This document shows positions 17,103 through 26,337 of a DNA stretch of 34,273 nucleotides, piece after piece. The notes under the pieces are model-generated. The model was not told the DNA's origin, searched no databases, and saw only the letters and a program-made list of their open reading frames with translations. Numbering within the stretch: position 1 is the first letter of the stretch; each line of letters opens with the position of its first letter. Source of the stretch: Nitrosovibrio sp. Nv4 (lineage in GTDB: Bacteria > Bdellovibrionota > UBA1018 > CAIMNF01); assembly GCA_943327105.2 (NCBI GenBank), contig CALPVV020000018.1, positions 1-34,273 of the forward strand, read 5' to 3'. The position numbers and the translations under genes are program-made.

Positions 17103-17198
17103 TTAGTGCGACTGCCTAGAGCCCCACATTAATACACCACAAAAACCAATTACCAACGCTACCATTCCATAAACAACCATATTTGCTGACATAAACAT
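17103..17198 (-). CDS. 31-aa single-TM protein, CcoQ-like micro-subunit candidate
   Basis: MFMSANMVVYGMVALVIGFCGVLMWGSRQSH*; AAGGAG SD just upstream; FNR-like box and -10-like module further upstream; GVLMWGSRQS resembles CcoQ GVLLWSNRKES in this window. Confidence 0.65.
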   Translation of the reverse strand: MFMSANMVVYGMVALVIGFCGVLMWGSRQSH

Positions 17199-17261
17199 TC
17201 TCCTTCTTAGCCAGTATAGGAAGAATGCAAGAAAGGTGTTATGAGCCGGTCGGCCGTGAGT

Positions 17262-17275
17262 ATGATCAGGGTCAT
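17262..17275. promoter_or_regulatory. FNR-like binding site ATGATCAGGGTCAT
   Basis: Near-palindrome matching ATGATCTGGATCAT at 25623; conserved flanks and spacing to TCATAACACCTT. Confidence 0.6.
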
Positions 17276-17301
17276 AGTTCGTGTTGACCCCGTGAAGAAT
17301 G

Positions 17302-17619
17302 TTATCTAGCGTTGTCAATTAATGCTCTACTTGCAGGAGCGCCAATTTTAGTGGGAAGTCCAATAGGTGGTTTTTTCTTTCCATACTGTTTCTGCAATAG
17401 ATCAAGTTTGGACTGAGCAACAAAAGAATTTGGATTTTTTGCCATATCCAAACAAATATCCTGAAGTGTATTCATGCACTGAACTGAACCAAACTCACCA
17501 CAAACACGATCTATTCGATCATTCACACAAGCATCCACTTTCGATTTGAGACTTTCATCTTCTTTCGAATAAGCACTAGTAGAAAAAAGCATAGATAAAA
17601 TCAGTATAAATTTATTCAT
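17302..17619 (-). CDS. Hypothetical small secreted protein
   Basis: MNKFILILSMLFSTSAYS signal peptide; GAGGGT-type SD; four Cys in the mature part. Confidence 0.65.
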   Translation of the reverse strand: MNKFILILSMLFSTSAYSKEDESLKSKVDACVNDRIDRVCGEFGSVQCMNTLQDICLDMAKNPNSFVAQSKLDLLQKQYGKKKPPIGLPTKIGAPASRALIDNAR

Positions 17620-17729
17620 ATCGTCTACCCTCAATTACTATATTAAGGATTCCGGTAACCCTCATCAAGAGTGTCTCTTCAGAGACGGGGGTAAACTAAT
17701 TCAATGGAAATTGGCTCTCAGGAGTCCAT

Positions 17730-18413
17730 TTATTTACAATTACTTAATTCATTCGAAATCGCGGAGTGATTCACGCCATGGTAAAAATGCCCGGCAACTG
17801 AAGCCAGCGAAGCAAGGACCATGATCACTGAAACCACCCGCGTGCCTTTGACACCGATGCGGGCAAACAGTCCCTGTAACAAGATTCGGCTGCCCATCAT
17901 CGCAGGCAAAGTGCCCAGCCAGAACACCGTCAAGGTCAGCGCACCACCCAGCAAACTATGAGTGGCAAGCGACAAAAGAACAAAACTATAAAGCCAACCA
18001 CAAGGCAGGAAAACGGTAAAAAAACCAACCAACGCCGGGCGAAGAATCGAGCGATCATTTTGACCAACTCGGTAACCAAGACCGATTCCGAATTTTGAAA
18101 TGCGAGAAGGAAGATTCCAACTCAAAATGAGATTCAAGGCGGAAAGCAAAAGCACCACTAAAACCAAAGCCGCGAAAAAAACCTGAAGTGGTTGCCATTC
18201 CCAAGAAGTGAACAACTGCTCACCCGCCGCACCGGCAATTGCGCCAGCCATGAGATATCCCATCAAACGAGACCCATGATACACGAATTGTGATTGCAAC
18301 CTTGAACCGGTAGCGCTCAACATGAGGCCACCACACATGCCCACGCAGTGAACACTGCCAGCGATCGAAGCAGCAAAGACTGCGAGTGCGGAACTAACGC
18401 CAAGGCCCGACAA
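17730..18413 (-). CDS. TauE/SafE-like membrane protein in the cbb3 locus
   Basis: IAGSVHCVGMCGGLMLS motif, multiple TM segments, FLPCGWLYSFVLLSLAT. Confidence 0.85.
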   Translation of the reverse strand: MSGLGVSSALAVFAASIAGSVHCVGMCGGLMLSATGSRLQSQFVYHGSRLMGYLMAGAIAGAAGEQLFTSWEWQPLQVFFAALVLVVLLLSALNLILSWNLPSRISKFGIGLGYRVGQNDRSILRPALVGFFTVFLPCGWLYSFVLLSLATHSLLGGALTLTVFWLGTLPAMMGSRILLQGLFARIGVKGTRVVSVIMVLASLASVAGHFYHGVNHSAISNELSNCK

Positions 18414-19770: not shown

Positions 19771-20330
19771 TTGATTTCAGTTCCTTGTGGCGCTTTCGGA
19801 TTGGCAGGCTTGGTTCCATCAAGGGTCTTCACATAGGCAACAACCGAGTTCAACTGGGCATCACTCATGAGGGCTCCCCATGCCGGCATCCCTTTATCCA
19901 GAACACCTTCACGAACCACTTTGTAAATATCGGCCAATTCACCCTTGCCATGAATCCAGAACTTGTCGGCAAGGTTCGGACCAACTAAACCACCACCATC
20001 AGGCGCGTGACAAGAAGCACACTTCGATGCGAACTGTTCCTTACCTGGCTTGAGCTGTTCAGGATCATTCACCATGGCAAGCAGTGCTTTGACATCGGGA
20101 CCAGTCGGCTGATTCTGAATTTGCATGCGTTTGACTTCGGCAATGGACTGATTGATGCGTTCGTCTGAACTCATTCCTCCGCCCACTTCGTAATAAACAT
20201 AATAGCCAAATGCGAAGGCAATGCTCAGGTAGAAAAACAACTGCCACCAGAATGGTGCCGGATAATCGAATTCCTGAATCCCGTCGTATTCATGATCTGG
20301 AATCGGTTTTTGCTCGTCGTTGTTATTCAT
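19767..20330 (-). CDS. ccoP: cbb3 oxidase cytochrome c subunit CcoP, mono-haem form
   Basis: DHEYDGIQEFDYPAPFWWQLFFYLSIAFAFGYYVYYE N-terminus; single CASCH haem motif. Confidence 0.92.
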   Translation of the reverse strand: MNNNDEQKPIPDHEYDGIQEFDYPAPFWWQLFFYLSIAFAFGYYVYYEVGGGMSSDERINQSIAEVKRMQIQNQPTGPDVKALLAMVNDPEQLKPGKEQFASKCASCHAPDGGGLVGPNLADKFWIHGKGELADIYKVVREGVLDKGMPAWGALMSDAQLNSVVAYVKTLDGTKPANPKAPQGTEIK

Positions 20331-20506
20331 TTAGTGCCTCCCATTCCGTTTTCTTCCAACGGAAGATTTTCCATTTCCTTATAGATGGAGCGGCTCTCTT
20401 TGCGGTTTGACCACAAAAGCACACCGACAAAAACCATCGCAAACATCAACATGCTGACCACGGGCAACGTGGTCCAGTGCAAATGAGACAAAGCTTCGCG
20501 AATCAT
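20327..20506 (-). CDS. ccoQ: CcoQ-like subunit, 59 aa (below ORF-track cutoff)
   Basis: MIREALSHLHWTTLPVVSMLMFAMVFVGVLLWSNRKESRSIYKEMENLPLEENGMGGTK*, translated by hand; ATGA overlap with ccoP; between ccoNO and ccoP. Confidence 0.85.
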   Translation of the reverse strand: MIREALSHLHWTTLPVVSMLMFAMVFVGVLLWSNRKESRSIYKEMENLPLEENGMGGTK

Positions 20507-22668
20507 TTTGCACCTCCTGCCACACCTTGAACAGTACCAAGCTTTTGCAAGTACGCGATCAATGCAATGATCTCGCGGTCTTCAGTGATTTGAGCACCTT
20601 CGGCGTTCAGACCATCGGCGATTTTTTTCGCTTCTTCGCGTGCCCAGCTTTCGGCATTGATCACATCTTCATCACCGTAAGGAACTCCGAGTGACTTCAT
20701 CACTGAAAGTTTCTTCGACATCAATCCGAAGTTGATCTTCTCTTTATACATCCAACCATAAGAAGGCATGATCGAACCATTCACCACTTCTTGCGGGTTT
20801 CGCATGTGGCGGAAGTGCCAAAGATCAGGATACTTAGAACCTTCACGTGCAAGATCAGGTCCGATTCGTTTGGAACCCCATTGGAAAGGACGATCGTATT
20901 TCGAGTCTTCGATCGTACTTGGCGCACCAAAACGGAGCACATCACCAACAGTTTTACGAATCATTTGCGAGTGACAAGTATAGCAACCTTCACGAACATA
21001 AAGATCACGACCAGCCAATTGTAACGGTGTATACGGTTTCACCATCGCATCGTGATAGTTTGCTTCTACAACGGATGAAGACATCCACATCGGAGCAAGT
21101 GAAATCACCGAACCAATCCCGATCATCACTACGACCAATGCTGCAAGCAACATCGGTGCGCCTTCGAGTACTCGGTGAGAGAGTTTCATACCAGCCTGAC
21201 CAAAAAGAGGCTTTCTGACGTATGGCACGCATTCATCGATGGTTTCATTGGTTTGTGTTGCAGGAGCAGCTTTCACCGTCTTATACACGTTGTAAACCAT
21301 GACCAAGGTACCCGCGAGGTAAACCACGCCACCCAATGCACGAATCCAATAAAGCGGAACCACACGAATCACGGTTTGTACGAAATCAGGATAAGCGAGC
21401 TTTCCTGCCATATCGACTTCACGCCACATCAACCCTTGGGTGATACCAGACACGTACATTGCCATCACATAAATGATGATGCCGAGAGTTGCCGTCCAGA
21501 AGTGAACATTTGCCAAACGCTTGGAATACAATTCAGTACCCCAGAGTTTTGGAACGAGATAATAGATCATCCCGAATGCAAGGAAACCATTCCAACCCAG
21601 TGCACCCGCATGTACGTGAGCGATAATCCAGTCGGTGTAGTGTCCGAGTTCATTCACTGATTTGATCGAGAGCAATGGACCTTCAAAAGTAGACATACCG
21701 TAGAAGGTTGCGGCAAGCGCGAAGAACTTCACAATTGGCTCGGTACGAAGCTTGTCCCATGCTCCACGAATGGTCATCAGACCGTTGATCATTCCACCCC
21801 AAGAAGGAATCCAGAGCATCACACTGAAGGCCATCCCGACGGTTTGAGCCCAATCCGGTACTGAAGTATTCAGAAGATGGTGCGGTCCCGCCCAAATATA
21901 GATGAATACGATCGTCCAGAAGTGAACAACCGATAAACGGTAAGAGTAAACCGGACGGTTCACGGCTTTAGGAATGAAGTAATACATTAAACCGAGAAAA
22001 GGTGTGGTCAGGAAGAACGCCACCGCATTGTGACCGTACCACCACTGCACCAAGGCATCACTGACACCTGCATAAATCGGATAACTCTTGATCATGGTAA
22101 ATGGCATCGAAAGCGCATTCACGACGTGAAGTACCGCCACGGTAATGAACGTTGCAATGTAAAACCAGATTGCAACATAGATGTGCTTCACGCGACGTTG
22201 AACGACGGTCATCAACATATTGATCCCGAACGCAACCCAAACCACCGCAATGGCGATGTCAATCGGCCATTCGAGCTCGGCATATTCCTTTCCTTGAGTG
22301 ATCCCGAAAGGAAGGGTCAATGCAGCAGAAACAATGATCAATTGCCAACCCCAGAAGTGAAAGTTCGAGATCTTGTCTGAAAACATTCTCGCTTTACACA
22401 AACGCTGAAGTGAATAATAGATTCCCGCGAAAATGGCATTCCCTGCGAATGCGAAAATTGCAGCATTGGTGTGCAACGGACGGAGTCGGCCGAAGCTGAA
22501 CCATGGCAAACCGGTATTGAGTGGATGGTAAGCCAACTGCATCGCAATAATAATCCCAACCAAAAACGCTACAACCGCCCAGACAATGGTCGCGATCGTG
22601 AATTTCTTCACCACCCCGTCATCATAACTGAAGCGTTCGAGAGTTCCTGTTTCTTGAACGTCTTTCAT
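20503..22668 (-). CDS. ccoNO: cbb3 oxidase subunits I and II fused (CcoNO)
   Basis: CcoN: GRLRPLHTNAAIFAF, WWYGHNAVAFFLTTPFLG, HVHAGALGWNGF. In-frame CcoO: GRDLYVREGCYTCHSQMIRKTVGDVLRFG...SKRIGPDLAREGSKYPDLWHFRHM. Confidence 0.95.
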   Translation of the reverse strand: MKDVQETGTLERFSYDDGVVKKFTIATIVWAVVAFLVGIIIAMQLAYHPLNTGLPWFSFGRLRPLHTNAAIFAFAGNAIFAGIYYSLQRLCKARMFSDKISNFHFWGWQLIIVSAALTLPFGITQGKEYAELEWPIDIAIAVVWVAFGINMLMTVVQRRVKHIYVAIWFYIATFITVAVLHVVNALSMPFTMIKSYPIYAGVSDALVQWWYGHNAVAFFLTTPFLGLMYYFIPKAVNRPVYSYRLSVVHFWTIVFIYIWAGPHHLLNTSVPDWAQTVGMAFSVMLWIPSWGGMINGLMTIRGAWDKLRTEPIVKFFALAATFYGMSTFEGPLLSIKSVNELGHYTDWIIAHVHAGALGWNGFLAFGMIYYLVPKLWGTELYSKRLANVHFWTATLGIIIYVMAMYVSGITQGLMWREVDMAGKLAYPDFVQTVIRVVPLYWIRALGGVVYLAGTLVMVYNVYKTVKAAPATQTNETIDECVPYVRKPLFGQAGMKLSHRVLEGAPMLLAALVVVMIGIGSVISLAPMWMSSSVVEANYHDAMVKPYTPLQLAGRDLYVREGCYTCHSQMIRKTVGDVLRFGAPSTIEDSKYDRPFQWGSKRIGPDLAREGSKYPDLWHFRHMRNPQEVVNGSIMPSYGWMYKEKINFGLMSKKLSVMKSLGVPYGDEDVINAESWAREEAKKIADGLNAEGAQITEDREIIALIAYLQKLGTVQGVAGGAK

Positions 22669-25127: not shown

Positions 25128-25544
25128 TTAGTGGGTTAAACGACTATGAAGCAATTCATTTAGTGCCTTCAATGCATCAGTAGTAGTAAAAATTCCAACC
25201 AATCGATGATTATCGACCACGAGAACGCTTCCGATTTTCTTTTCAGCCATCATTTTAGAAACATCATCAAGTTTTGATTCCGGCTTCACGAGAAACACTT
25301 CTGAACTGGCGATTTCATCAACGGTGGTTTTTGAACTTTCAACGCCACGAATGGACATTGCCAATTTCAAATCTCGATCACTGATCACTCCTGAAATTTG
25401 ACCACCTTTCATCACTGGAAGATGGCGAATTTTATTTTCGCTCATCATTTTGTGCGCTGTCTCAATCGTCTGGTCTGAGCCGATTGAATGGGGCATAACA
25501 GTCATAAACTTCATTACAGTTGGAACACTTTTATTCATGGTCAT
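25128..25544 (-). CDS. CBS-domain-pair protein
   Basis: From MTMNKSVPTVMKFM after AAAGGAGT SD; NKIRHLPVMKGGQISGVISDRDL and KKIGSVLVVDNHRLVGIFTTTD. The listed start at 25757 is an over-extension. Confidence 0.9.
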   Translation of the reverse strand: MTMNKSVPTVMKFMTVMPHSIGSDQTIETAHKMMSENKIRHLPVMKGGQISGVISDRDLKLAMSIRGVESSKTTVDEIASSEVFLVKPESKLDDVSKMMAEKKIGSVLVVDNHRLVGIFTTTDALKALNELLHSRLTH

Positions 25545-25622
25545 TGGGATAGACTCCTTTTCTTTGAAATCGAGTCTAGCGAACACCGTGCCGAAGGTGT
25601 TATGATGGCTCAAAGATTGATT

Positions 25623-25636
25623 ATGATCTGGATCAT
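25623..25636. promoter_or_regulatory. FNR-like binding site ATGATCTGGATCAT in divergent promoter region
   Basis: Palindrome between the CBS/cbb3 operon and the Crp/Fnr gene; ATGAT-N4-ATCAT variant of TTGAT-N4-ATCAA. Confidence 0.65.
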
Positions 25637-25650
25637 AATTCGAGGTATCT

Positions 25651-26337
25651 ATGGGAAAATTAAACGAAAAAGTGAAGTGTAGCGATTGCGAAACACGCGG
25701 GAAAAGCCTGCTCTGCTCACTGAAGCATGAAGCCCTGACTACGATCGATGAGTCCAAGTTTCATCAACATTATAAGGCCGGACAAAACTTGTTTTATGCA
25801 GGAAATCCTGCTGCTGGGGTATTTTGCATCTTATCAGGAACCGTAAAACTTGAAGTTCAAGATGAAGAAGGCAAAACCCAAATTGCCCAAGTTTATTCAA
25901 AGGGCGGCATGATCGGCTATCGAGCTCTCTTTAGCGATGAAACTTACCTGAGCAGCGCGATTGCCGCTGAACCGACCGATCTATGCTTCATTCCGAAGGC
26001 CACCATTCTTGAGTTAGTAAAGAAGAACCCAGAACTCTCTCTCAAATTTTTAAAACAACTTTCAGACGATTTCAGAATGATGGAAACACGACTCCACCGT
26101 GTTTCTTCAAACACCGCTGTCGAGCGCATCGCTGAGGCTTTGTTGTTCTTGCGTGAAAACTTTCATGAAAAAAACTGGACCCGTAAAGAAATCTCAGAAT
26201 GGGCCAGCACCACCACGGAAACAGTGATTCGCACACTTGCTGATTTCGAAACCGAAGGCTTGATTGAACAAAAAGGTCGAGTCATCACTATTCTCAAGCG
26301 GGATCTACTTCTAAAAAAGGCAAAAATTTCGGTTTGA
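25651..26337 (+). CDS. Crp/Fnr-family regulator with FNR-like cysteines
   Basis: cNMP-type beta roll; KCSDCETRGKSLLC plus TDLCFIP (position of FNR Cys122); HTH WASTTTETVIRTLADFETEGLI. Confidence 0.92.
   Translation: MGKLNEKVKCSDCETRGKSLLCSLKHEALTTIDESKFHQHYKAGQNLFYAGNPAAGVFCILSGTVKLEVQDEEGKTQIAQVYSKGGMIGYRALFSDETYLSSAIAAEPTDLCFIPKATILELVKKNPELSLKFLKQLSDDFRMMETRLHRVSSNTAVERIAEALLFLRENFHEKNWTRKEISEWASTTTETVIRTLADFETEGLIEQKGRVITILKRDLLLKKAKISV

Follow-up and report, generated by a model that had tools for sequence, protein, structure and literature searches.

The microprotein gene and its promoter

The 34,273-nucleotide stretch of DNA analysed here, referred to as the window, carries a set of cbb3-type oxidase genes encoding CcoI, CcoS, a CcoN–CcoO fusion (20503–22668, minus strand), CcoQ (20327–20506, minus strand), CcoP, CcoG and a DsbD_2 protein (17730–18413). 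The fusion of CcoN and CcoO into one protein is that of the known subfamily PRK14485, and most of the ccoN matches found in the order are long frames of this type. Beyond the DsbD_2 gene, the last of the cbb3-type genes, and an intervening unrelated 110-residue open reading frame (17302–17634, minus strand; signal-peptide-like start, several cysteines, no family match), lies the gene for a single-TM microprotein, which faces an esterase-like gene on the opposite strand. Its position past the end of the cbb3 operon agrees with an earlier note on this DNA.

The minus-strand frame at 17103–17198 translates as MFMSANMVVYGMVALVIGFCGVLMWGSRQSH, exactly the 31-residue product quoted in that note, and occurs as a single copy in the window's genome. 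The AAGGAG Shine–Dalgarno sequence is indeed present (17200–17205, minus strand), but the first ATG, from which the 31 residues are counted, is only 1 nt away from it, while the second (17192–17190) is at a distance of 7 nt. In all four homologues the frame starts where this second ATG stands, which makes MSANMVVYGMVALVIGFCGVLMWGSRQSH, of 29 residues, the most likely protein, encoded at 17192–17103 (minus strand) and ending with a stop codon at 17105–17103. Start, length, frame, stop and a similar Shine–Dalgarno element in the same place are common to all five copies, so that the check which the earlier note had set for start, Shine–Dalgarno sequence and frame is passed; conservation of these features and of the promoter in four relatives argues against a chance frame, and by this comparison the gene encoding the 29-residue peptide is real. 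A 71-residue frame from the TTG at 17318 was rejected: it runs through the promoter box described below and gave no separate match in profile searches, and the homologues begin at ATG 17192.

The earlier note had also ascribed to the gene its own FNR-like promoter module, and this is borne out. An FNR-like box, TATGACCCTGATCATA, at 17261–17276 (minus strand) is followed at exactly 42 nt by the −10 hexamer TATACT (17213–17218, minus strand), and this spacing is identical in all five peptide genes, each of which is preceded by the box TATGAYCNNGRTCATA with at most one mismatch and has TATACT, TAAACT, TAGACT or TAGAAT as its −10 hexamer; the distance from box to ATG is 68 or 75 nt. With transcription starting about 7 nt after the −10 hexamer, the centre of the box would fall near −61.5. 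This Class I position is rare in Escherichia coli, where most activated promoters have the box near −41.5 (PMC3688515). An element similar to TCATAACAC (17236–17244, minus strand) recurs in the promoters of both the peptide and CBS-domain genes, about 15–25 nt past the box and covering the −35 position, and is possibly a second FNR half-site.

A second exact copy of the box (25622–25637, minus strand) lies in front of the CBS-ccoI-S-NO-Q-P-G operon, the first gene of which encodes a CBS-pair protein (25128–25544, minus strand; start set by its Shine–Dalgarno sequence). CBS-domain genes, whether opening a cco operon or standing alone, share the arrangement of a box followed at 42 nt by the −10 hexamer. 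The full promoter pattern, allowing at most one mismatch, occurs in only seven places in the 13 genomes of the family, namely the five peptide genes, the CBS-cco promoter of genome G006 and a CBS gene on contig C70 of the window's genome (G000). When the box alone was searched for at the same threshold, that of the peptide was the sole match in G007 and in G010, and in G003 it is the only exact match. An FNR-type box at a conserved distance from the −10 hexamer is therefore common to the peptide gene and other genes, and from its promoter sequence the peptide gene is a member of an FNR-box regulon.

CBS-pair proteins recur in this regulon, as the first gene of a cco operon and, in G000 and G008, as a stand-alone gene whose promoter is laid out alike (G000:C70:5518–5581, L098; G000:C4:14465–14528, L100; G008:C11:26049, L180). 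In a sister clade (G009, G011 and G002; loci L149, L150 and L088) the CBS gene is preceded by CATGATCNNNGTCATG, which is a variant form of the window's box; the failure of these three genomes to match the box pattern thus says little, because their CBS promoters carry this related sequence.

The regulator acting at the box is likely to be the product of the gene at 25651–26337 (plus strand), a putative oxygen-sensing Fe–S FNR with a CxxC-x8-C motif and a fourth cysteine (CFIP). Orthologues are present in all five peptide-bearing genomes, and in all ten orthologues seen the CxxC-x8-C motif is kept together with the fourth cysteine, the latter in a C-F/Y-IP motif; the assignment of these cysteines as ligands follows the analogy with E. 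coli FNR.

Tight regulation, small size and a single TM segment are also features of type I toxin peptides in general. The peptide could accordingly be read as a small hydrophobic toxin of this kind, silent in the presence of oxygen and expressed when oxygen is low, but there is no evidence of an antisense or antitoxin RNA, Rfam gives no match to the locus, each genome has one copy and the gene is co-regulated with respiration genes, which makes this reading very unlikely.

Conservation and resemblance to CcoQ

A profile of the peptide was searched against 58 genomes of the class and 369 of the phylum. Its matches came from a single genus, in the five genomes G000, G003, G006, G007 and G010 (E of about 1e-17 to 1e-19), with no convincing member outside that genus in either set, so the family is known from five draft genomes of a single genus; the G006 copy is on contig CAIOKW010000122.1 of an Oligoflexia bacterium. 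Weak matches in other genera (L014, L015, L019, L032, L190 and L191) were discarded, being mostly shadow frames within longer open reading frames or lacking a helix, and no FNR-like box was found upstream of those that were checked for one. Three further weak matches (L021, L022 and L192) proved to be CcoQ proteins proper.

Residues M1, A3, V7, Y8, A12, V14, L21 and W23 are invariant across the five copies. Among the closely related copies of G003, G007 and G010 the changes fall mainly at third codon positions and dN/dS is 0.08–0.19, so that in these genomes the peptide is, as judged from codon substitutions, under purifying selection; between distant copies dN/dS is only indicative, because synonymous sites are near saturation. 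These observations bear on the reading in which the locus specifies an FNR-activated small RNA and the short frame is incidental. The gene is monocistronic and a possible weak terminator hairpin is suggested by eye in G003, G007 and G010, although it is not significant against shuffled sequences; on the other hand, the third-position changes, the fixed start, stop and Shine–Dalgarno sequence and, among the closely related copies, a dN/dS far below 1 leave a small RNA scarcely probable at all.

The likeness between the TM helix and the CcoQ of the window, to which the earlier note had drawn attention, exceeds chance. Comparison of the peptide profile with CcoQ proteins collected from cco operons of the phylum gave an hhalign probability of 91% (score 29.5, P 9.5e-7), against 19% (score 18.0) for the CcoS control, which had the best probability of the decoys; 115 TM windows of CtaD, CcoNO, CcoI and CcoP scored at most 17.1, and none of 200 column shuffles reached the CcoQ score (maximum 25.8). 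CcoQ proteins of other genomes outscore unselected TM segments with an AUC of 0.90. Against the CcoQ profile, the peptides of G000, G003 and G010 are surpassed by only three of 904 such segments, and these three, with scores of 41–72 bits, look like CcoQ pieces within longer frames. The G006 peptide taken alone has no resemblance to CcoQ, the likeness being seen as a family profile.

In Pfam the only matches to the peptide are FixQ (PF05545) and DUF979, each with E 0.051. The FixQ score of 14.0 bits is below the gathering cut-off of 29, a weak test because the operon CcoQ of the window, at 20.3 bits, also falls below it. No structural relatives of the peptide were found in the PDB. Homology between the peptide and CcoQ is possible on these profile comparisons; a likeness of this kind can also be the product of convergence between short helices.

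Relation to the cbb3 oxidase

Among the carriers, G000 and G006 have ccoN; G003, G007 and G010, which are 91–98% complete, lack it. Each of the latter three has one heme–copper oxidase, of the aa3 type, and the CtaD tree joins them. An aa3 oxidase was not found in G006 (assembly 84% complete), and no single oxidase was found in all five carriers. The loss of cbb3 looks real rather than an assembly gap: at the fnr loci of G007, G010 and G003 (L145, L146 and L147, respectively) the FNR gene is kept and adjoins on one side the same FKBP-like and asparaginase-like genes (named from reading their sequences) as in G006, while the CBS-cco operon has vanished from the other side. In G006 one contig carries the peptide gene, among unrelated neighbours, and another carries the cco operon, so the nearness of the two in the window does not represent a conserved linkage. 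Conversely, no peptide copy was detectable in the ccoN-bearing family members G001, G002, G004, G008 and G012.

These distributions weigh on the proposal, put forward in the earlier note, that the peptide is a micro-subunit or assembly peptide of this oxidase. A dedicated additional cbb3 component of the CcoM or CcoQ type would account for the CcoQ-like helix, for the box shared with the cco operon and for the position of the gene about 1.2 kb beyond ccoG in the window. However, three of the five carriers lack ccoN while keeping the peptide under purifying selection, adjacency is lost in G006, in most relatives with ccoN no peptide could be detected and CcoM is not similar to it. To the extent that genome comparison can show it, association with the oxidase fails, and such a component is improbable. 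What survives of the note's description of a stand-alone oxygen-regulated peptide for cbb3 is the genuine stand-alone gene with its FNR-type promoter and CcoQ-like helix, and what does not is the tie to the oxidase.

Retention of the peptide in the absence of cbb3 would equally be expected of a low-oxygen-induced modulator of an unrelated membrane protein, a transporter or ATPase, comparable to AcrZ, KdpF or MgtS, in which the CcoQ-like helix would be a convergence. Such a role would also suit a gene whose neighbours are not conserved beyond the G003/G007/G010 clade and a family in which one copy is not CcoQ-like. The resemblance to CcoQ, well above that of TM decoys and shuffles, speaks against it, and the genomic context suggests no alternative partner; a modulator of this kind is accordingly possible, if doubtful.

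Proposed function

The reading adopted here, with some hesitation, is that the gene is monocistronic and FNR-switched and that its 29-residue single-pass product, induced at low oxygen, acts as an accessory helix of some respiratory membrane complex and is not tied to cbb3. Upon a fall in oxygen, the Fe–S FNR-type regulator would bind the box centred near −61.5, activating a promoter with a poor −35 element and switching on the peptide gene. The peptide would insert as one helix, N-out/C-in, and its CcoQ-like face, ending in a tryptophan followed by a polar tail, may dock beside a respiratory membrane complex, where it would play an accessory or stabilizing part modelled on those of CcoQ and CcoM at cbb3. 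An oxidase or another low-oxygen respiratory complex would be the likeliest partner; since the peptide is kept where cbb3 has been lost, that partner cannot be cbb3 alone, and the peptide probably serves something besides it.

A more specific version, in itself rather unlikely, holds that the microprotein is CcoQ-derived or CcoQ-like and has been freed from cbb3: FNR and the peptide would have been kept after the loss of cbb3, with the peptide as the best, or even the sole, remaining strict FNR-box target and its helix serving another low-oxygen respiratory complex, for example the aa3 oxidase.

The single-helix small subunits of oxidases are commonly missed by gene finders and are regarded as belonging to one enzyme. 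In the present case the oxygen-regulator promoter of an unlisted 29-residue peptide is among the clearest in its genome, and the peptide outlives the enzyme that it resembles, which amounts to a natural experiment on the role of CcoQ-like helices. It also suggests that an FNR regulator can persist after losing its classic target, with a microprotein apparently as its main strict-box gene.

Comparison with known small membrane subunits

CydX and AppX are accessory subunits of cytochrome bd of about 30 residues, with a single TM segment and a link to low oxygen, and in these respects the peptide is like them. A CydX-type subunit was rejected, as none of the 13 genomes of the family has cytochrome bd (PF01654).

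CcoM of Pseudomonas stutzeri (PDB 5DJQ, chain N), which is needed for the stability of cbb3 but not for its activity (PMC8267372), is likewise a very short protein with one TM segment, its gene occurring in a cbb3-bearing organism. It differs in scoring 3.0 bits against the CcoQ profile and 6.6% with the peptide in hhalign, and the peptide is not tied to cbb3; homology to known CcoM was rejected for want of sequence similarity.

CcoQ, which in some species stabilizes the interaction of CcoP with the cbb3 core (PMC8267372), comes closest. The peptide and CcoQ/FixQ share a single helix in which small and aromatic residues are spaced alike and a tryptophan precedes a polar tail, and the cco operon here is under the same FNR box as the peptide. 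In contrast, CcoQ/FixQ proteins have 51–66 residues rather than 29, and the peptide lacks both their N-terminal MIRExL stretch and the C-terminal Y...PL segment of the CcoQ proteins of the phylum. It has its own promoter outside the operon, and another gene occupies the operon's slot between ccoN/O and ccoP; in G000 and G006 it occurs alongside a normal CcoQ, and in G003, G007 and G010 it is kept without ccoN. No described family matches the peptide. At most it would act in the manner of an orphan CcoQ-type helix, although it fails several features of CcoQ membership, and it is best placed among the small accessory TM proteins of low-oxygen respiration.
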